Below the pieces are notes generated by a model. That model saw only the letters and a list, made by a program, of their open reading frames with translations, did no database searches and was not told the origin of the DNA. A stretch of DNA of 30,438 nt from a virus. Location of the stretch: positions 1 to 30,438 of IMG/VR virus record IMGVR_UViG_3300042924_002825; one strand, given 5' to 3'. Positions 19,853 through 30,257 of this stretch are shown here, in pieces (the stretch's first letter is position 1; each line of letters starts with the position of its first letter). A program made the position numbers and the translations under genes.

Positions 19853-20227
19853 ATGCTCAACACCCGAAGCCTCACCGCGCTGAAAGGCGTGCATGGTGAC
19901 CTTGTGCGCGTGGTCAAGCGCGCCGCTGAACTTAGCCCCACGCCGTTCATTATCACCGAAGGCTTGCGCACGGTCGAACGCCAGAAAGAACTGGTCGCCA
20001 AGGGCGCGTCGAAGACCATGAACTCGCGCCACCTGACAGGCCACGCCATTGACTTCGTGCCTGTCGTCGGTGGGCAAATCACATGGAAGTGGCCTGCGTT
20101 CAAGCCGGTGGCGGACGCGTTCAAGAAGGCCGCGCAGGAACTCAAGGTGCCCATCGTCTGGGGCGGCGATTGGCGGACCTTCAAGGACGGGCCTCATATC
20201 GAACTCGACAGGAAATCCTACCCATGA
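19853..20227 (+). CDS. Endolysin, M15 peptidase (L-Ala-D-Glu / D-Ala-D-Ala type)
   Basis: At 124 aa it is close to the T5-type peptidoglycan peptidase. The M15 zinc motif is S-R-H-L-T-G-H-A-I-D at residues 58-67, with H60 and D67 as ligands, and the third ligand is H115 in DGPHIEL. The ITEGLRTVERQKELVAKG segment is the usual lead-in. There is no signal peptide or membrane segment, so export must rely on a holin. It begins three bases after the fibre gene and its stop overlaps the next start in ATGA, which pairs it with the small membrane protein that follows. The product cuts peptide stems in the cell wall. Confidence 0.92.
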   Translation: MLNTRSLTALKGVHGDLVRVVKRAAELSPTPFIITEGLRTVERQKELVAKGASKTMNSRHLTGHAIDFVPVVGGQITWKWPAFKPVADAFKKAAQELKVPIVWGGDWRTFKDGPHIELDRKSYP

Positions 20228-20445
20228 CCACGATTGCAGAGCTTCACCAGGACGTTGGAAAGCTGCAGGGCCAGGTTCTTGGCCTGACCAATGAAGTCAC
20301 CATGCTGCGGGCAGAAGTGCAGACGCTGACCAGCATGCGGCACGAGCTTCGCGGCGCACGCTACGCGATTGTCCTTGGATATTCCGTGATTGCCGCTGTC
20401 GCGGGATTGCTAGCTTACTTTGGCATCAAGTGGACGGCAACCTGA
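20224..20445 (+). CDS. Small membrane protein, XhlA-like holin candidate (73 aa)
   Basis: The product has an N-terminal amphipathic coiled coil (LHQDVGKLQGQVLGLTNEVTMLRAEVQTL) and one C-terminal transmembrane segment (IVLGYSVIAAVAGLLAYFGI). This topology matches XhlA-type lysis accessory proteins. I start at ATG 20224, which overlaps the endolysin stop in ATGA; a longer frame upstream runs through the endolysin gene. A second two-segment membrane protein with holin character occurs at 22.6 kb, so one may be the holin and the other a pinholin or antiholin. Which does which is not decidable from sequence. Confidence 0.65.
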   Translation: MTTIAELHQDVGKLQGQVLGLTNEVTMLRAEVQTLTSMRHELRGARYAIVLGYSVIAAVAGLLAYFGIKWTAT

Positions 20446-20446
20446 C

Positions 20447-21724
20447 ATGCCGACACCCAGTCTGAATCCTGAAGTGTGGCTGGCCAGAAAAGCAAAAATC
20501 GAAGAGGCATTGAAGGCAGGATACGTTCCGGCTGGACAAGCGGGAGGCCACGGCAAAAATGGTGCCATTCAGGCCGCTGCCAAGGCGCTGAACATTTCGC
20601 ACACGACGCTACACAACACCATTGCCCGCGCACAGCAGCTCAAATATGAACCAGTAAACTGGAAACTGTATAAAGGCCCGGCGAACGCCGAAGTGCAGCC
20701 CGCGCCGCCTGACATCGTTCGTACCCGCAACCAGGTGCACGACTTACGCAAGCAACTGAACGACGCGCTGAAGAAACTCGGCGACCTTGAAGACATCCGC
20801 AAGTCGGTGTTTGGCCTGGCACCTGACCGGCTTGCAATTCCGAATTGGCAATCCCAAAAAGCAAAGGGCAAGAGCCGCCCCGAAATCGCCACGCTGTTCA
20901 CCAGCGACTTTCAGGTTGGCGAAGTCATTCGGGCGGAAGAGTTGGAGTATCCCAACGACTACAGCCCGGCGGTGTTTTCCGAACGCTATCGGCGGCTGAT
21001 AAGCACTGCCATCAAGCTTCTGCAGCGCGAAAGCCCTGACATGAATTATCCGGGCTTTATCTATTTGCGTGGTGGCGACGCCATCAGCGGCAACATACAC
21101 GCGGACTTGGCGGAAACGCAAAATCTGACCAGCGTGGAACAGACGCAGTTGGTCGCTGAAGAAGAAATCAAGGGGCTTGAGGAATTGCTGAAGGCGGTTC
21201 CGAAGGTGACAGTCTATTCCGTACCCGGCAATCACGACCGCACCACACCCAAGCCACGGGCCAAGCGGTTTGTGGCTTTGACCTATGACCAGCTGGCCAT
21301 CTGGACGATTGAAAAGTATTTCAGTGCCAAGGGCGAGAAGCGCATCAGCTTCGTGACCCCGCCCAGTGGTGACGCCTATTATAGCCTGTTCGATACTCAT
21401 TACCTTCTGACGCATGGCGACCGGATTGGCAGCCGTGGGGGCCAAGGCTTCGTCGGCCCTGCAGCCACCATCGCGCGCGGCATCCAGAAGGTTCGGCAGC
21501 AATTCGCGCGCATGGGCAAGCCCATCAACTTCGTCCTGACCGGGCACTTCCATGTTGCCATGGATTTGCCAAACGGCATTGCCAACGGGTGCCTCGCAGG
21601 GTTCTCCGAATACGCAAAGTCGGAACTCAGGGCGGAGCCAGAGCCGCCGACGCAAACAATGTTCTGGACCCATCCCAAATGGGGATTGACCACCATTCGG
21701 AGGATTCGCGTTGACCACGACTGA
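20447..21724 (+). CDS. HTH-metallophosphoesterase fusion (425 aa)
   Basis: I chose ATG 20447, one base after the previous stop. Residues 38-63 (NGAIQAAAKALNISHTTLHNTIARA) form a clear helix-turn-helix. Residues 92-118 are coiled coil. From ~146 on it is a calcineurin-like phosphoesterase: GGD at 209-211, GNHDR at 261-265, HGDR at 323-326 and GHFH at 366-369. The first metal motif is S-D-F-Q (153-156) where most relatives have D-x-H, so one ligand is substituted. Such enzymes cut phosphodiesters or phosphomonoesters and include SbcD/Mre11 nucleases. The HTH suggests action on DNA. It sits inside the lysis region but has no obvious lysis role. Confidence 0.85.
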   Translation: MPTPSLNPEVWLARKAKIEEALKAGYVPAGQAGGHGKNGAIQAAAKALNISHTTLHNTIARAQQLKYEPVNWKLYKGPANAEVQPAPPDIVRTRNQVHDLRKQLNDALKKLGDLEDIRKSVFGLAPDRLAIPNWQSQKAKGKSRPEIATLFTSDFQVGEVIRAEELEYPNDYSPAVFSERYRRLISTAIKLLQRESPDMNYPGFIYLRGGDAISGNIHADLAETQNLTSVEQTQLVAEEEIKGLEELLKAVPKVTVYSVPGNHDRTTPKPRAKRFVALTYDQLAIWTIEKYFSAKGEKRISFVTPPSGDAYYSLFDTHYLLTHGDRIGSRGGQGFVGPAATIARGIQKVRQQFARMGKPINFVLTGHFHVAMDLPNGIANGCLAGFSEYAKSELRAEPEPPTQTMFWTHPKWGLTTIRRIRVDHD

Positions 21725-21944
21725 AGAAACCGCACAGACGGTCACGGTTGTTGTTGAACCGTTGCCATTCTTCTTTGGCGACCAATCCACCGGCAGCCTG
21801 TGGATATGGATATTCCAAACCGTCATGCAGCATTCAGAAACACCGCTTACACCCAAGACGCTTGACTTCGTGGACCAAGCCTTTGAGCGGGCGCTGGACC
21901 GTCTTGAAGGCAAGCGGGTGCAGAAGCTCGAGGTGGTGAAATGA
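21711..21944 (+). CDS. Small hypothetical protein (77 aa)
   Basis: The start is TTG 21711, supported by GGAGG at 21699-21703 with a 7-base spacer; no better start is available in the frame. It overlaps the metallophosphoesterase end by 14 bases and its stop overlaps the next start in ATGA. The product has a hydrophobic/aromatic centre (VVVEPLPFFFGDQSTGSLWIWIFQTVMQ) and a helical charged end (FVDQAFERALDRLEGKRVQ). The central stretch is short for a transmembrane helix and contains polar residues. I do not recognise a family. Context suggests it is an accessory protein made with its neighbours. Confidence 0.6.
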   Translation: MTTTEETAQTVTVVVEPLPFFFGDQSTGSLWIWIFQTVMQHSETPLTPKTLDFVDQAFERALDRLEGKRVQKLEVVK

Positions 21945-22147
21945 CCCTGCCGCATAGGCGCTTTTGTGTTACCAACCAGATTGGCCCCTTTGCCGTGTCA
22001 GTTGGATTTACGCAGGACGTACATGGCGAGTGGATAGTGCCGTGCGAAGTGTTTATTGCCGCGCGGGGCAAGTCGGGCACGGAGCTGGAAAGCCACCTTT
22101 ATGAAATTGGCGTCACTGCGTCGAAACTAATGCAGGGCGAGACGTGA
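21941..22147 (+). CDS. TSCPD-like small protein (68 aa)
   Basis: The pattern LPHRRF...FAVSVGF...PCEVFIAARGKSGTEL...LYEIGVTASKLM resembles small proteins of alphaproteobacteria and their phages, which share a 'LPxRR', then 'P-x-E-V-F-I', then 'K-S-G-x-E/D-L' layout with the TSCPD domain otherwise found at the end of class II ribonucleotide reductases. The cysteine in PCEVF takes the place of a variable position. No known function can be given. It is coupled by ATGA to the gene before and lies one base ahead of the zinc-peptidase-like gene. Confidence 0.6.
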   Translation: MTLPHRRFCVTNQIGPFAVSVGFTQDVHGEWIVPCEVFIAARGKSGTELESHLYEIGVTASKLMQGET

Positions 22148-22148
22148 C

Positions 22149-22589
22149 ATGGACAGGCGGTTCGCGGAAATCGCGCGCCGCTACACGCCCGCCTTCATCA
22201 AGGTGCGTTTCAAGCGCCGGAAGAATGGCAAGCTGGTCCTCAAGCCTGCGCATGCCTGCCTGCAGCGCGAGGAAATGCTGGTCCCGCGTCCGGTGACGCT
22301 GGAAGCCCTTGTCTACTATCTGCACGAATGCGCGCATTTCCACTTGCGCCACTTCGACCCCGAAGAGGCCCGCACGTCTAAACTGGCGGCGCTTTATGCC
22401 GGGGCGGCAGCGCCTACAGAGGCCCAACAGGAATACGAAGCCGAACAGTGGACGCTGGCCACGCTAAGGCGCGAGGGCATTCCGGTCCCGGCTCATGTGA
22501 TTGAAGACATGCGGTCTTACGTCAAGCAATGCCTGGTCGCCGATGGCGGCAAGGTCGTCCCGCGCCGTGTGCGCAAGTTTATAAGGTGA
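22149..22589 (+). CDS. Putative zinc metallopeptidase-like protein (146 aa)
   Basis: Residues 59-63 are HECAH, an HExxH zinc-binding motif in a helix (LVYYLHECAHFHLRHF), followed about 35 residues later by EYEAEQWT (95-102), which offers a third glutamate ligand. The spacing and the 'H-E-x-x-H ... E-x-E-A' order are like ImmA/IrrE and similar small zincins. The N-terminus is basic (DRRFAEIARRY, KVRFKRRKNGK). It has no signal peptide, so it would act inside the cell. Substrate is unknown: repressor cleavage, as in ImmA, is one option, a virion or lysis role another. It lies between the metallophosphoesterase group and the second holin candidate. Confidence 0.7.
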   Translation: MDRRFAEIARRYTPAFIKVRFKRRKNGKLVLKPAHACLQREEMLVPRPVTLEALVYYLHECAHFHLRHFDPEEARTSKLAALYAGAAAPTEAQQEYEAEQWTLATLRREGIPVPAHVIEDMRSYVKQCLVADGGKVVPRRVRKFIR

Positions 22590-22600
22590 AAGGATAAGCC

Positions 22601-22840
22601 GTGAACATGAAACTTGTCATTGAGATTGTCATTGGTGCACTGAACTTCTTTCCGGGCTACAAGACGCGCGTTGCGGCCATTGCGTCTGTCATCAGCGCCT
22701 TGGTTGTTGCTGCCAGTGCGGCCCTGTCGGCGTTCGGTGCGGGCTTCACCATTCCCTACCTGAACGAAGTGAATGCCCTGCTGATTGCGCTGACAGCGGT
22801 GGGTGCAGCGAACCAGCCCAACAACGTGCCGAAGCCGTGA
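22601..22840 (+). CDS. Holin candidate, two membrane segments (79 aa)
   Basis: The start is GTG 22601 with AAAGGA at 22589-22594; an ATG at 22607 is two codons later, a possible dual start of the kind that holins use for timing. Two hydrophobic segments are visible: VAAIASVISALVVAASAALSAFGAGF and VNALLIALTAVGAAN. The N-terminus FFPGYKTRVA and the P-rich tail flank them. The stop overlaps the i-spanin start in GTGA, placing it in the spanin-holin group. This is the better match to a classical small holin, but the coiled-coil membrane protein at 20.2 kb is an alternative. Confidence 0.7.
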   Translation: MNMKLVIEIVIGALNFFPGYKTRVAAIASVISALVVAASAALSAFGAGFTIPYLNEVNALLIALTAVGAANQPNNVPKP

Positions 22841-23214
22841 CCTATCTTCGGCTCGGCCTCTGGGCCGCGTTCGTTGCGGGGCTTGTCTACGCAGGCTGGG
22901 TGGCCAATGGCTGGCGATTGAAAGCCGCCACGGCTGAAGGCTATCGGCTTGAACTGCGCAACGAACTAGAACGCCGGGTCGCTGCCGACGTGGCCCGGCT
23001 GAAGGCGCAGCGTGAACTGGCAACAGCGCAGGCGCGCGTGGTCGAAAAAGTCAAAATCGTCAAACAGACTGTCACGAAATATGTCCCGCAGAATAACCCT
23101 GAGTGTGACCTTAATGACGTTGTCGCTGGCCAGTTGCAGCGCCTTCGGGAAGGGGCCGACATGCCCCCAGCCCCCGGCGGAACTGCTGCTGCCAGCGAAG
23201 CCGCTGGGGACTAA
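22837..23214 (+). CDS. Rz: Inner-membrane spanin (Rz-like)
   Basis: The start is GTG 22837, overlapping the holin stop. The N-terminal signal-anchor (LGLWAAFVAGLVYAGWVANGW, residues ~6-26) is followed by a long periplasmic coiled coil (RLELRNELERRVAADVARLKAQRELATAQ), the usual i-spanin layout. 'PECDLNDVVAGQLQRLREG' is a recurrent C-terminal block of Rz proteins. The C-terminal tail is alanine/proline-rich. The partner o-spanin gene starts inside this one in another frame and continues past it. Together they link and fuse inner and outer membranes at the last step of lysis, which implies a Gram-negative host. Confidence 0.85.
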   Translation: MTYLRLGLWAAFVAGLVYAGWVANGWRLKAATAEGYRLELRNELERRVAADVARLKAQRELATAQARVVEKVKIVKQTVTKYVPQNNPECDLNDVVAGQLQRLREGADMPPAPGGTAAASEAAGD

Positions 23215-24592: not shown

Positions 24593-25003
24593 TCAGTTTA
24601 TCTGCCGCGCCTTCATTGCCGACCGGCTGGCCTCGGTACTGCCCCGCGCCACGATTGATATCTGTGCCTCTGGCCCCAGCATTTCCCACGCTCGCCTGAA
24701 CGCCGCCAGTTGCGCCCCGACGCAGGGCCAGCCAAGGGCTTGGGCTTCGGCGTTGTCATTGGCAAGGCTCAATTCGATTTCATGACCGCCTGCAACCGCT
24801 TTCTTGGCTTGCTTTGCCACCTCGCGCGCGGCTGTATCTTGAGCGACGGCCAAGGCGTGCAGGGCCGTCCAGACACCTTCAGGGACAGCATTGCGACCGC
24901 TGCCCCAGCTTTTGACGGTATCCGGGCGCACGGACAAAAAGGCTGCGGCCTCGGACTGTGATAGTCCAAGGCCCGCAATGATTGACGCGAACAGCGTTTT
25001 CAA
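24593..25003 (-). CDS. HTH transcriptional regulator (136 aa)
   Basis: I start at TTG 25003, which overlaps the upstream gene's stop (TTGA) and has GGAG with a 6-base spacer; an earlier TTG at 25021 is less well placed. Residues 13-36 (GLSQSEAAAFLSVRPDTVKSWGSG) form a Cro/CI-type helix-turn-helix. The rest is helical, with a conserved-looking ALGWPCVGAQLAAFRRAWEMLG segment. There is no peptidase domain, so it is not a LexA-type CI repressor. It ends six bases from the late genes' end, tail to tail. It is a candidate to bind the nearby operator-like repeat at 25374-25390. Confidence 0.75.
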   Translation of the reverse strand: MKTLFASIIAGLGLSQSEAAAFLSVRPDTVKSWGSGRNAVPEGVWTALHALAVAQDTAAREVAKQAKKAVAGGHEIELSLANDNAEAQALGWPCVGAQLAAFRRAWEMLGPEAQISIVARGSTEASRSAMKARQIN

Positions 25004-25320
25004 ACGGCGCTCCAGCCGCAATCAGGGTCAAGCCGATAGCTTTTGAAGCCAAGCGGCTTCTTGATAAGAATGCGCCCAACCCCCGTGCAGTTGCCGCGTG
25101 ACAAGTAAGCGTTTTCGGCAAGCACGCGTGCCCTAAATTTTGAGGCAGGGGCAAGACCAGCCTCCGTCATGCGCTCAACTATCCACTCGCGGCTTACAGC
25201 GCCAATGCGGCTTTCGCCGCCGCGCTTGGAAATTCCGACGACAACAGGCTTCACACACAGGTTGTATTCAGCCGCTGTGTGCAAGCGGCCCTTTGAGTTC
25301 ATTTCAAAGGGGGTTTTCAT
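25000..25320 (-). CDS. Hypothetical protein of the control region (106 aa)
   Basis: I choose ATG 25320, which has AGGTGGAG upstream and lies downstream of a predicted promoter; a longer frame from GTG 25419 would start upstream of that promoter. The product is basic and has mixed strands and helices (VKPVVVGISKRGGESRIGAVSREWIVERMTEAG), ending with GVGRILIKKPLGFKSYRLDP. 'REWIVERMTEAGL' could be part of a DNA-contacting helix, but no standard HTH is certain. It is coupled to the HTH regulator by TTGA. It is the first gene behind the promoter, so its dose would follow operator control directly. Confidence 0.6.
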   Translation of the reverse strand: MKTPFEMNSKGRLHTAAEYNLCVKPVVVGISKRGGESRIGAVSREWIVERMTEAGLAPASKFRARVLAENAYLSRGNCTGVGRILIKKPLGFKSYRLDPDCGWSAV

Positions 25321-25338
25321 GTTAGGTCTCCACCTCTT

Positions 25339-25359
25339 GCGGGGGGCCAATCCCCCCGC
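25339..25359 (-). promoter_or_regulatory. Strong leader hairpin between promoter and start codon
   Basis: GCGGGGGG (25339-25346) and CCCCCCGC (25352-25359) form a perfect 8-bp, all G-C stem with a 5-base loop. It would lie very near the 5' end of the minus-strand transcript and just before the ribosome site. No T-run follows, so it is not a standard terminator. It may stabilise the mRNA or control ribosome access. Confidence 0.6.
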
Positions 25360-25368
25360 GCTGAAGTC

Positions 25369-25397
25369 AATGTATACACTGTAAGTGTATCTTTCAA
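25369..25397 (-). promoter_or_regulatory. Predicted promoter with inverted repeat in its spacer
   Basis: On the minus strand TTGAAA (25397-25392) and TACATT (25374-25369) are 17 bases apart. Between them lies the perfect inverted repeat ATACACT-N3-AGTGTAT (25374-25390), which fills the spacer. A dimeric repressor bound there would block polymerase. The promoter would drive the 106-aa gene and the HTH regulator, so autoregulation is possible. Base-by-base reading supports the motifs; activity is inferred. Confidence 0.5.
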
Positions 25398-25399
25398 GG

Positions 25400-25436
25400 G
25401 TCACCCCCACGTCAGCCACTGATTAATCAGCGACAC
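25400..25436. repeat. 37-bp direct repeat, copy 1
   Basis: This matches 26162-26198 at 36 of 37 positions (difference at 25419, C against T). It contains the 12-bp palindrome CTGATTAATCAG (25419-25430). It ends 3 bases upstream of the -35 element at 25397. It also contains the stop of the 75-aa gene. Confidence 0.8.
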
Positions 25437-25650
25437 GGTTGCGCTTTGAGGCCGCAAGCAGTTTTTGCAGCAGGGCAATGCGGGCGCGCACTAGGGCGTG
25501 CAACTCGTCCTGCAAGCCTTCCGGGGGTTCGTGCGTTCCCGCCACCCAGCGGCGCATGGTGCGGTCGCTGACGCCCAAGTCACGGGCCAGCGCGGATTGA
25601 AAAAGAGGCCCGTAAAGGGCCTCTCCCACTTTTATCAGGTCGCCTCGCAT
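25423..25650 (-). CDS. Small HTH DNA-binding protein (75 aa)
   Basis: The product has a clear helix-turn-helix at residues 17-40 (FQSALARDLGVSDRTMRRWVAG), followed by THEPPEGLQDELHAL, a layout seen in Cro-like and other small phage repressors in which 'P-P-x-G' follows the recognition helix. The C-terminal helix (IALLQKLLAASKRN) may dimerise. ATG 25650 overlaps the upstream gene's stop in TAATG. The 37-bp repeat runs into its stop codon. It is one of two HTH proteins in this region, so the two may form an opposing pair, as in Cro/repressor switches, but the orientation is the same for both. Confidence 0.75.
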   Translation of the reverse strand: MRGDLIKVGEALYGPLFQSALARDLGVSDRTMRRWVAGTHEPPEGLQDELHALVRARIALLQKLLAASKRNRVAD

Positions 25651-25868
25651 TATTGCTCCAAGGCTTCCGCCAGTATCTTGTCGATAGTGGCCGTCTCGCT
25701 TTCGGTCAGGTCGCGCTCCAAGGTCTGAAGCCAGCCAGACGTGCCCAGCTTGCCGATATGCGTGAGAAGACGGACTGTCCCAACACGACGGGCCTCCGCT
25801 TCGGTCATGGCGGCGGCAATTGCCGTGCCTGTTTCGTCGCGGTCTACAACGTAAGTGACGTATGCCAT
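25650..25868 (-). CDS. Small hypothetical protein (72 aa)
   Basis: The product has a beta-strand start (MAYVTYVVDRDETGTAIA) and then helices (AMTEAEARRVG, GWLQTLERDLTESETATIDKILAEALEQ). No known motif is visible. A GGAG lies upstream of ATG 25868 at a longish spacing. The gene is joined to the HTH gene downstream by TAATG and to the upstream gene by a six-base gap, so all three probably come from the promoter at 26.15 kb. It may modulate the HTH protein, but this is only inferred from coupling. Confidence 0.55.
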   Translation of the reverse strand: MAYVTYVVDRDETGTAIAAAMTEAEARRVGTVRLLTHIGKLGTSGWLQTLERDLTESETATIDKILAEALEQ

Positions 25869-25874
25869 TTAGGG

Positions 25875-26072
25875 CTAGTCTCCGTCGACTGAGAGCACAA
25901 GGCAGGCCGCTCCGTCCTTCCAGAAACGGTCGTAAATCATCCAGGAGTCCAAATCATCTGGGCGACCAATTTCAGGACCAAACTTGCTGTCAGAGTAGTG
26001 CCCTGCGTGCGGCCATGACGCTTTCAGAACACGCCTGTGACCGTCAACAGTAGCGTCGTGATATGTAATCAT
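25875..26072 (-). CDS. Small hypothetical protein (65 aa)
   Basis: ATG 26072 has a perfect AGGAGG (26083-26078) with a 5-base spacer. The product is rich in aromatic and histidine residues (ITYHDATVDGHRRVLKASWPHAGHYSDSKFG, DSWMIYDRFWKDG) and ends with a strand (ACLVLSVDGD). It looks like a compact beta-rich domain. I do not recognise the family. It is the first gene behind the predicted promoter at 26125-26153. Its ribosome site sits in the loop of a small hairpin. Confidence 0.6.
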   Translation of the reverse strand: MITYHDATVDGHRRVLKASWPHAGHYSDSKFGPEIGRPDDLDSWMIYDRFWKDGAACLVLSVDGD

Positions 26073-26748: not shown

Positions 26749-27840
26749 TTAAGCCTTGTTTTTCATAGGCTTGGTGACCACCGGCTTAATTCCTTCGGGA
26801 CTATTCCGGGACACAACAGCAGCCATCGCAGCCCGAACGTCGTCAATCATCGCGTGGGCATAGCGGGCCGTGGTGGCGATATCCCGGTGGCCCAGAAGGT
26901 TCTGAACCACCTTCAGGTTCTGGCTGGCCCTGAGCGTCCGTGTGGCGGCGGTGTGGCGCAAGTCGTGAAACCGGAAGTCGCTTATCCCTGCCTGCGTCAA
27001 GGCCCGTTCCCAAGCCCTTCGCCAGCCCGTCTGGGTGAAGGGGTGCCGTTGCCCTTTCCGCCTTCCCTGCCGACCCCTGACCACTTCGTAGGTGAAGACC
27101 CGTTCCTTGTGGTTTCCCCGTTCGGCTGACAGCAGGGCGACCAGTTCGGGAATAAGGGGTACGAAGTGAACCTCGCCCCCTGGCTTCTTGGACTTGACCA
27201 GTAGGCGAATGACGCCCGCGTCAAAGTCCACCTGACCCCATGTCAGTTCGATTGCGTTCCTGAGCCTTACCCCCGTTATCAGGGCAAAGCGAACCAATGG
27301 GTGCAAATCCTGCCGCAAGGCTTCGAACAGCCTTTGCTCTTCCCCCGCCGTCAATTCCCGCACGCGCCCTTGCGGCTCGCGCAGCATGAAGTCCGTCCAG
27401 TTTATGGTGGGGCAGTCGGCCTGCCAGACCTTCTCGGCCCTGCGCATCATGCGGCGCAGGACTTCCAGCTCGCGGTTCACCGAAGCGTCGGAAACTTTCG
27501 CCCGCCTCTTGGCGATATAGACCGCCAACATGGGGCCGTCGATATCGTGCAGCGGCGTTTGAAGTCCAAGCCCCGTGCATAGGTTGGCAAGCTGGTATTC
27601 GGTGGTTTTCGAACTGGGCTGAAACTTGGCGACTTCGGAGAAATAGCGTTCGGCGGCTTTGTCCAGTGTCAGGCTTGGTTTTCGTCGGCTTGCGCCTTCG
27701 GCTGCGTCGAGGCGGAGGCGGGCTTCGACGGCTTCCGCCGCGCGGCGAGACGTTGTGCCCGTGCTGCCATGAAGCCGCCGACCGTTGACAACGAAGTCAA
27801 AGTGCCAGTACGGCGAATTTTTGGGGCGATAGACGGACAT
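26749..27840 (-). CDS. int: Tyrosine integrase
   Basis: The 363-aa site-specific recombinase inserts and removes the phage genome. The N-terminus (RPKNSPYWHFDFVVNGRRLHGSTGTTSRRAAEAVEARLR) is the three-strand arm-binding domain. Residues ~55-155 form the SAM-like core-binding domain. The catalytic set is complete: R192 in ITGVRLRNA, K216 or K218 in the beta-hairpin, H292 and R295 in HDLRH, H318 in LLGHRD, and Y327 in TTARYAHA. The last codons lie next to the tRNA-Pro core, and codons 343-349 contain the right arm repeat. The excisionase-like gene upstream overlaps it by 172 bases. Confidence 0.95.
   Translation of the reverse strand: MSVYRPKNSPYWHFDFVVNGRRLHGSTGTTSRRAAEAVEARLRLDAAEGASRRKPSLTLDKAAERYFSEVAKFQPSSKTTEYQLANLCTGLGLQTPLHDIDGPMLAVYIAKRRAKVSDASVNRELEVLRRMMRRAEKVWQADCPTINWTDFMLREPQGRVRELTAGEEQRLFEALRQDLHPLVRFALITGVRLRNAIELTWGQVDFDAGVIRLLVKSKKPGGEVHFVPLIPELVALLSAERGNHKERVFTYEVVRGRQGRRKGQRHPFTQTGWRRAWERALTQAGISDFRFHDLRHTAATRTLRASQNLKVVQNLLGHRDIATTARYAHAMIDDVRAAMAAVVSRNSPEGIKPVVTKPMKNKA
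26794..26812 (+). other. attP arm-type repeat, right
   Basis: TTCGGGACTATTCCGGGAC differs from the left copy by one base. It lies inside the integrase gene, near its 3' end, so one sequence serves both as coding region and as probable arm site. Confidence 0.6.
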
Positions 27841-28916: not shown

Positions 28917-29236
28917 GACATTCGGGCCTCGTACCTATGGTCCGCGCGGTCTTGCGTGGCTTCCCAATGGCGCATGCGGAGAAACTCGACTTCGACCTTC
29001 GCCTGATTTGCCAACGTCCTGGCGCGCACCATTTTCTTGATATAGTCCGACCAGAAGTCGCTGGCCTTTACTTGCAGTTCTGCTTTGCTGACGGCCATGT
29101 CCCCCAGTGCCGTCATGCGCTGGCTTAGGACGGCACTCTTGCCTTCCTCAAGCATGCGCGCGGCAGCATCCAAGTCCGCCCACTTCATGGCGGCTTCGCG
29201 GTAAAGTTCAGACTGGGGGCGCTTGTTCGTGTTCAT
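28913..29236 (-). CDS. Helical protein of ERF operon (107 aa)
   Basis: The product is nearly all helix, with 'KAELQVKASDFWSDYIKKMVRARTLANQAKVEVEFLRMRHWEATQ'. The pattern 'VKAS-x-x-W-x-x-Y-x-x-x-M-V-x-A-R-T-x-A-N-x-A-K-V-x-x-E-x-L-R-M-R' is well known from small proteins encoded beside ERF or RecT in phages. A role in recombination is likely but undefined. It is joined to the ERF gene upstream and the coiled-coil gene downstream by 4-base overlaps. Confidence 0.75.
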   Translation of the reverse strand: MNTNKRPQSELYREAAMKWADLDAAARMLEEGKSAVLSQRMTALGDMAVSKAELQVKASDFWSDYIKKMVRARTLANQAKVEVEFLRMRHWEATQDRADHRYEARMS

Positions 29237-29892
29237 TCAGCCGCCACCCTGACCAGCGCCTTGCGCTGTTCTGCCAAAGCGCCCGCAATCATTTTGGCTT
29301 CGTCGGCATAGCTTTCCTTCAGCCTCGCCAGCTTGGGTGCGTTCTCCGCATACCAATCGTCCAGTGCGGTTTCGGTCTTCAGTGAACCAATGGCCTTAAT
29401 GCTTTCGGTGACAAACGCGCGCGCGGCCTGACTGCGGTCGGGCTGGCGGCTGTTGTCTGCCGGCTTGCCAGCCGGCTTGTCGTCATCTTCGTCCGCGTCG
29501 ACACCTGTCGGAATCTGGAATAAGCCAAGAATGAAATACTTGCGGGCTGCTGTGTGGCACTTGTTCAAACACTTGTCGTCAAAGCCGCCTTTGGTGTTGC
29601 GCATGCTGGCGAGGCCCGTGATGCGATACGGTCCCGCTGTTGCCCCGCCGCTTGACAGGAAAAAGTCATAGTTCGCAGCGACTAAATCCCTGTCACCTAT
29701 GACGTTGTAGGACACTTCCGACTGCACAATCGCCAGGCCGCACTTCACAAGCGCGGGCTGCACCTTCTCCAGCACGTTCTCAATGCTGGCGTATTTGTAA
29801 CCGTAAAACTTGTTCTCACCCGTTTTTTGCACGTAGCCCACTTCCTGCATGACGCTCAACACGGCGTCTGAAATTTCCTTTGGCATTGTCAT
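29233..29892 (-). CDS. erf: ERF-family single-strand annealing protein
   Basis: The first ~140 residues have the ERF signature: GYKYASIENVLEKVQPALVKCGLAI, a middle strand, then 'DDKCLNKCHTAARKYFILGLFQIPTG'. The family anneals complementary single strands in phage recombination and circularisation, a step needed for headful P22-type genomes after entry. A linker rich in D, K and P (DADEDDDKPAGKPADNS) and a helical C-terminal region follow. The neighbours (helical partner, HNH nuclease, end of a probable exonuclease-like gene) fit a recombination cluster. ATG 29892 overlaps the HNH gene's end. Confidence 0.9.
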   Translation of the reverse strand: MTMPKEISDAVLSVMQEVGYVQKTGENKFYGYKYASIENVLEKVQPALVKCGLAIVQSEVSYNVIGDRDLVAANYDFFLSSGGATAGPYRITGLASMRNTKGGFDDKCLNKCHTAARKYFILGLFQIPTGVDADEDDDKPAGKPADNSRQPDRSQAARAFVTESIKAIGSLKTETALDDWYAENAPKLARLKESYADEAKMIAGALAEQRKALVRVAAE

Positions 29893-30257
29893 TTGTTTGT
29901 CCTCCGAACTTCCCCGTTAAACTTCCGCCAGCCGCTGAACTTGCGGCCTTTAAGTTTGCTTTGCGGGCGGTCCATTTCGCCCGACACAATCTTTTCGTGC
30001 AGTTCGCGCGCCACTTTCAGGCGCTTGGATTTGGAATTGCGTTGGTGTTCGAACGCCGACTTTTCCCGGTGACACCATACACAAATCACCGCTAAATTGC
30101 TTGCTTCGTGGGTGCCGGAATCCACAAGCGCCTGAATATGGTCGAAGTGGAACTGGTCCCACGGACAGACGCGCTTGCAGATATAGCAAGCCGCCTGAAC
30201 CTGGCCCGCCTTCAGGGCTTCCAGCTTCATACTGGCGCTGATTGCGGGGCGCTTCAT
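29889..30257 (-). CDS. HNH endonuclease (122 aa)
   Basis: The HNH core is at residues 24-65: zinc cysteines C24 and C27 (CYIC), the first histidine in FDH (39-40), N54 in ASNLAVIC, C59 and C62 (ICVWC), and H63. The N-terminus MKRPAISASMKLEAL is helical. The C-terminus is strongly basic (KSKRLKVARELHEK, KLKGRKFSGWRKFNGEVRR), suited to DNA binding. It overlaps the ERF gene and the upstream gene by 4 bases each, so it belongs to the early operon. It may be a recombination nuclease or a free-standing homing-type enzyme. A packaging HNH usually sits beside the terminase, so that role is less likely. Confidence 0.9.
   Translation of the reverse strand: MKRPAISASMKLEALKAGQVQAACYICKRVCPWDQFHFDHIQALVDSGTHEASNLAVICVWCHREKSAFEHQRNSKSKRLKVARELHEKIVSGEMDRPQSKLKGRKFSGWRKFNGEVRRTNK

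Follow-up and report, generated by a model that had tools for sequence, protein, structure and literature searches.

A D-x-Q subfamily of the phage phosphoesterase family phrog_284, encoded among the lysis genes of a metagenomic virus

Introduction

What is a metallophosphoesterase with an N-terminal helix-turn-helix (HTH), and with a glutamine where the first metal motif usually has a histidine, doing among the lysis genes of a virus? The question is raised by positions 20447 to 21724 of IMG/VR virus record IMGVR_UViG_3300042924_002825, the whole 30,438 nucleotides of which were analyzed and are called the window here. An original prediction had described the product of this gene as an HTH-fused, calcineurin-like phosphoesterase with an altered motif I and had suggested site-directed DNA processing, such as anti-defense, packaging-end processing, or nucleic acid damage on entry. 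The answer bears on how a two-metal site tolerates glutamine in place of histidine and on the use that phages make of DNA-bound phosphoesterases late in infection.

Results

The gene is real and is under strong purifying selection, which is strongest in the catalytic domain. A 425-aa open reading frame was found at 20447..21724 (+), as had been predicted; the mechanical call opens at a TTG at 20420, and alignment with relatives puts their starts where the ATG at 20447 lies. In comparisons with seven relatives, pS was 0.60-0.86; pN was 0.08-0.24 across the catalytic domain, compared with 0.29-0.39 for the N-terminal part. A near-identity DNA search with 9 kb of the window against a phage collection gave no match, nor did a search of a plasmid collection; a search of 385 whole genomes of one class found 2 that matched at E 1e-10.

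The protein is a member of a known, nuclease-like phage family, phrog_284, within which it belongs to a D-x-Q subfamily, and it does not look new in kind. It matches phrog_284 ("exonuclease") at E 2.1e-31, with residues 40-416 aligned to positions 21-388 of the 398 in the profile. The same profile is matched by 62/62 aligned family members, 37 of which also match phrog_704 ("DNA repair exonuclease"). Pfam Metallophos gave 20.5 bits for the whole protein, under the cutoff of 21.5, and the catalytic assignment therefore rests on the phrog_284 match together with the structure model; at E 0.01, 19 of the 62 family members match Metallophos, the best at 1e-6. A search of 50,697 phage records returned 67 matches at E 1e-3, all of them less than 60% identical. 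MW202713, the best match among deposited phage records, shows 33% identity and carries D-x-H, and it was again the first match when three more distant D-x-Q proteins were used as queries. Phrog_284 is widespread in phages, with annotations that conflict: the deposited names of relatives include exonuclease, DNA polymerase II small subunit, DNA repair exonuclease, and hypothetical protein, and a search of a viral structure library with the model returned phage proteins named DNA polymerase II small subunit. Profile searching found no PDB relative by sequence, and the literature searched (outside preprints and with few subscription papers) yielded no study or biochemistry of any phrog_284 member.

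An AlphaFold2 model of the whole protein, built from 59 sequences (mean pLDDT, 87; pTM, 0.71), contains a calcineurin-like phosphoesterase domain at residues 147-421 (20885..21709, +). The top six solved structures by VIA-align Z-score were all PolD DP1 entries (Z 16.7-18.4 over 243-251 residues), the best being 6t8h_A (Z 18.4; rmsd, 3.6; 248 residues aligned). After DP1 came Mre11 (3tho_B; Z 15.5; rmsd, 4.2; 206 aligned) and the Pol delta B-subunit (7kc0_B; Z 15.5), and SbcD (7dog_B) reached Z 14.6. In Foldseek alone, the top ranks went to purple acid phosphatase and SoxB, which superposed poorly (TM about 0.3; rmsd, 11-12); these matches, along with that to VPS29, were taken as superfamily-level.

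Upstream of the catalytic domain, the model has a three-helix HTH at residues 8-64 (helices 8-23, 40-47, and 52-64; 20468..20638, +), and a long helix, the predicted coiled coil, follows at residues 89-120 (20711..20806, +), flanked by segments with pLDDT under 50 (residues 80-88 and 123-128). A separate AlphaFold2 model of residues 1-80 gave the same three helices (pLDDT 78), so that the N terminus folds as an HTH in both models. Pfam HTH_30 was below threshold in this sequence (E 0.044 for the whole protein and E 0.005 for the N terminus alone), and the assignment is clear at the level of the family, in which HTH_8/Fis was matched by 10 of 33 N-terminal regions of relatives (best E 8.8e-10) and HTH_30 by 14 of 33. 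Comparison of the HTH model with solved structures gave weak matches (best Foldseek E 0.49; Z 4.3-6.2), mostly to HTH domains of transcription factors, including LysR-type regulators and NtrC1, with a de novo designed protein as the top row by Z. Taken from these models and the family-level Pfam matches, a Fis-type HTH is present. The HTH had also been read as a sign of a special role; that reading is not supported, as HTH fusion and the protein itself are ordinary for phrog_284 and relatives occur in many contexts.

The predicted GGD, GNHDR, HGDR, and GHFH motifs are all found in the translation. Motif I is D154-F155-Q156, preceded by S153 (20906..20914, +), with glutamine replacing histidine; motif II is R208-G-G-D211 (21068..21079, +), with R208 confined to the D-x-Q form; and E240 (21164..21166, +) is a second-shell residue that is gained and lost together with R208. 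Motifs III, IV, and V are G261-N-H263-D-R265 (21227..21241, +), H323-G-D-R326 (21413..21424, +), and G366-H367-F-H369 (21542..21553, +), respectively. That S-D-F-Q stands in place of D-x-H, as had been noted, is evident from alignment with MW202713, PQ571282, and HM480106, which all have D-x-H.

Relatives were collected from three scans of viral contigs (up to 80 rows from each, out of 538 relatives in one scan and 163 in another) and from 20 genome loci; 98 catalytic domains were kept after two fragments (L104 and L105) and near-copies were left out. Residues D154, D211, H218, N262, H263, R265, H323, H367, and H369 are identical in 98/98 of these nonredundant domains, and the loss of other metal residues among relatives, against which the prediction had been set, was found in none of the 98. 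Position 156, among the matches listed, is histidine in 64 of the domains and glutamine in 34, with no third letter. The glutamine comes with a set of further residues: Y206 is present in 34/34 Q rows versus 0/64 H rows, R208 and E240 in 32/34 versus 0/64, and Y181 in 33/34 Q rows and no H row. R208 and E240 are paired, both or neither, in all 98 domains; in the two Q rows that depart from the pattern, L161 and L166, M208 occurs with V240. The D-x-Q members carry D-F-Q or D-Y-Q. The 20 genome loci, of which 2 are fragments that lack motif I, included no D-x-Q form. On the best tree, Q requires three changes with 98 rows or two with 62 rows, and neither set rejects the grouping of all Q rows in one clade (AU p 0.525 and 0.444, respectively). 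Because position 156 is restricted to H or Q and is accompanied by the co-substituted Y206 and R208-E240, the alignment indicates that Gln156 is a stable, structurally coupled state rather than an error or a decaying site.

The predicted position of the gene between endolysin and spanins was borne out by PHROG matches. Upstream in the same run of genes are an endolysin (phrog_465; 19853..20227, +) and a small membrane protein that is holin-like by its PHROG name (phrog_2658, E 8.7e-5; 20224..20445, +), which ends 2 bp before the ATG. Downstream are a 68-aa gene conserved in the close clade (21941..22147, +), a 146-aa protein with a HECAH (HExxH) zinc-protease-like motif (22149-22589, +), and an Rz-like spanin (phrog_2466, E 1.2e-4; 22837..23214, +). 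The genes between 19853 (endolysin) and 23214 (spanin) mostly overlap or nearly touch. The phosphoesterase gene is locked into this endolysin-spanin run and, read from gene order, would therefore be made late. Scans for terminators (8 found versus a shuffle mean of 9.9) and promoters (5 versus 2.6) were close to the shuffles.

In a close group (64-100% identical), a lysis gene lies upstream in 13/13 contigs. The type of lysis gene varies among M15, CHAP, and GH24, labels that we assigned to the lysis query proteins ourselves. Association with a downstream "TSCPD-like" gene, which the original prediction proposed to follow, was seen for the 68-aa gene in 13/13 close contigs and in 0/23 other D-x-Q rows, some of which have little downstream sequence; the TSCPD label itself was not upheld, as none of 4 homologues matched a Pfam family even at E 5. 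The 68-aa protein has no Pfam or PHROG match and is highly conserved, sharing 72-73% identity with three homologues. The companion proposal for the HECAH gene fared poorly, as that gene is kept in only 3/13 close contigs; its product has no Pfam, PHROG, or solid NCBIfam match. A metalloprotease-like HExxH gene, which looks SprT-like, was also seen near D-x-H members (L005:9591-9938, L071:2766-3125, and about 3 kb downstream in L090), and together with the HECAH gene of the window, an HExxH protease may be a recurring neighbor.

Other relatives adjoin nrdB (RNR), dNMP kinase, DNA polymerase, HNH, tail fiber, or lysis genes, and a constant gene neighborhood across the family was rejected since the neighbors are mixed. 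The survey of neighboring proteins covered 66 of 107 loci, with near-copies and some others left out; another survey used rough greedy gene calls and dropped 8 of 71 loci. A same-strand lysis gene was found near 17/25 Q loci versus 7/37 H loci (Fisher p 1.6e-4, after the exclusion of 36 of 98 loci whose flanks were short). We gave this association no phylogenetic weight because the lysis queries were hand-picked partly from the same loci and the tree holds only one to three independent pairs.

Elsewhere in the window, about 1.4 kb (24600-26000) without a convincing gene separates the last late gene from the integrase region and is a candidate attP or regulatory region. A tyrosine integrase is encoded at 26749-27840, and an ERF-type recombinase (Pfam ERF, E 3e-20) adjoins an HNH endonuclease (E 8.3e-10) at 29233-30257 (-); these genes indicate a temperate phage.

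Discussion

The original prediction was borne out in what it described and partly supported in how it interpreted the gene. Our favored reading, held with a little better than even confidence, is that the gene encodes an active, late, DNA-directed two-metal phosphodiesterase (nuclease) of phrog_284, with a PolD-DP1/Mre11-like domain, that trims or degrades DNA. Metallophosphoesterase domains also act on nucleotides and proteins, which counts against DNA as the substrate. In the proposed mechanism, the Fis-type HTH would place the protein on DNA, and the coiled coil probably pairs two subunits. D154, Q156, D211, N262, H323, H367, and H369 would bind two metal ions, which would in turn activate water to attack a phosphodiester, with H263 as the likely proton donor, equated by motif position with the proton-donor histidine of DP1, H451 (PMC4996933). 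Gln156 would replace histidine as a metal-1 ligand and be accommodated by the changed second shell (Y206 and R208-E240), the coupled positions of which presumably touch in space. We take the enzyme to be active because of the precedents of D-x-Q in ADPRibase-Mn and of DP1, and the pattern of conservation suggests that the metal site is probably retuned rather than dead. Either metal preference or rate may have been adjusted in the D-x-Q branch; Mn2+ is what we would expect, a guess by analogy with ADPRibase-Mn. The most likely role of such an enzyme, late in infection, would be to trim or degrade DNA of the host or replicating DNA of the phage.

Several other readings have to be weighed against this one. 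Hydrolysis of a signaling or repair nucleotide (ADP-ribose, cyclic ADP-ribose, or 2',3'-cyclic ends) as counter-defense, with the HTH serving a regulatory function, is unlikely but retains a real minority chance. ADPRibase-Mn, the only characterized family with a conserved D-x-Q that we found, is described as acting on ADP-ribose, CDP-alcohols, 2',3'-cAMP, and cADPR (PMC4334965); its zebrafish structure, 2nxf, was rank 10 in the Foldseek search with the model (E 4.9e-3), and several relatives of the gene adjoin nucleotide metabolism genes. However, 2nxf was not among the best 50 structures by Z-score, a list led by nucleases, and the HTH and coiled coil point to DNA. Calcineurin-like enzymes have been listed among phage counter-nucleotide and repair proteins (PMC9503650, PMC7824862). 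We also judge it unlikely that the protein is a host takeover or anti-defense nuclease that damages host DNA in the manner of mycobacteriophage A10ZJ24 Gp48 or T5 A1. Precedent exists in both cases, as Gp48 is reported to have DNase activity and to silence host defense genes (PMC12287305), and A1, described elsewhere as a calcineurin-like phosphodiesterase (PMC7824862), is reported to be required for host DNA degradation (PMC13250531, PMC8541194). Yet Gp48 is described as early expressed and A1 as pre-early, and the gene here lies among late genes. In hhalign comparison with a profile of nine A1 proteins, motifs III and V aligned in order, but the result (E 0.044; probability, 1.2) was not significant.

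Packaging or DNA end processing, in which the HTH and coiled coil would recognize a phage site and the phosphoesterase would trim ends for terminase, draws on the late position of the gene and on the resemblance of an HTH with a coiled coil to small terminases. It is very unlikely in our estimation, since the gene is 16 kb from the terminase in the window, a terminase-like gene was found with one query within 6 kb in only 2 of 66 loci (L024 and L072), and phrog_284 members occur in many contexts with no constant packaging partner. That the protein is a catalytically dead scaffold, like the B-subunits of eukaryotic polymerases, is highly improbable. The departure of motif I from the D-x-H consensus and the strong fold match to the Pol delta B-subunit could be read this way; however, B-subunits are described as having lost all catalytic residues (PMC4996933), and D-x-Q is active elsewhere, in ADPRibase-Mn (PMC4334965). 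The invariance of all other metal positions across the 98 domains led us to reject the dead-enzyme reading.

A broader proposal goes beyond the favored late nuclease and is, in our view, distinctly unlikely: that the D-x-Q branch forms an enzyme type of its own among phages. Here, a late, site-seeking nuclease with its metal center rebuilt as a unit (Q156, Y206, and R208-E240) would make defined DNA cuts from among the lysis genes independently of terminase, or the enzyme would destroy a nucleotide alarm signal by ADPRibase-Mn-like chemistry. What can be stated at present is that a D-x-Q subfamily, seen here only in metagenomic viral contigs, is now defined together with a testable set of co-substituted residues.

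Comparison with known systems places the protein closest in fold to PolD DP1, the best solved match by Z, whose metal motifs are of the same type and which also has the GNH proton donor. DP1 is described as a 3'-5' proofreading exonuclease that keeps the Mre11 ligands and has two metals modeled as Fe and Zn (PMC4996933). It differs in having an OB domain in its N-terminal part, where the model here has an HTH and coiled coil, and the protein here differs from it in having glutamine at motif I; since the model has no OB insert, the protein is not filed as DP1. The likeness to Mre11 and SbcD lies in the fold (Z 13.5-15.5), and no SbcC/Rad50-type ATPase was found among the genes adjoining the phosphoesterase in the window. 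Two contigs (L021 and L022) have a separate SbcC-SbcD pair near the D-x-Q gene, and an SbcD reading was therefore rejected for them; the pairs are at L021:12185-15036 and L022:12489-15367 (-), and the same contigs carry RNR and dNMP phosphatase genes.

Among phage enzymes, A10ZJ24 Gp48 is likewise a metallophosphoesterase with phosphodiesterase and DNase activity (PMC12287305), set beside our protein by description only. Apart from its early expression, it differs in having its motif residue D10 near the N terminus, and it would therefore have no N-terminal HTH extension. T5 A1 (phrog_1745) belongs to a PHROG separate from phrog_284 and has D-x-H, N-H, H-G-H, and G-H-x-H motifs towards its C terminus. 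Kinship with A1 was considered but not established, as the motifs are alike by eye but profile comparison was not significant with either a single sequence or nine sequences. In A1 and its homologues (L179:1706-3376 (-)), SRG...GHTHS...GSLDMGY resembles SRGG...GHFH...NGCLAGFSEYA here, a likeness that is not significant by profile.

A published parallel to the altered motif is ADPRibase-Mn, which keeps D[V/I]Q in its first consensus region; a docking model has the carbonyl of Gln27 coordinating metal 1, and a Q27H substitution is reported to make the enzyme 11- to 27-fold less efficient (PMC4334965). The D-F-Q and D-Y-Q seen here have the same third residue but a different second, and ADPRibase-Mn differs further in its substrates and its lower fold rank against the model. 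Within phrog_284 itself, the N-terminal HTH or linker, the phosphoesterase domain, and all motifs but one are common to the family and to this protein, which has D-x-Q with Y206, R208, and E240 rather than D-x-H. Collectively, the D-x-Q form described here appears to be a stable and functional variant within an already known family of phage enzymes.
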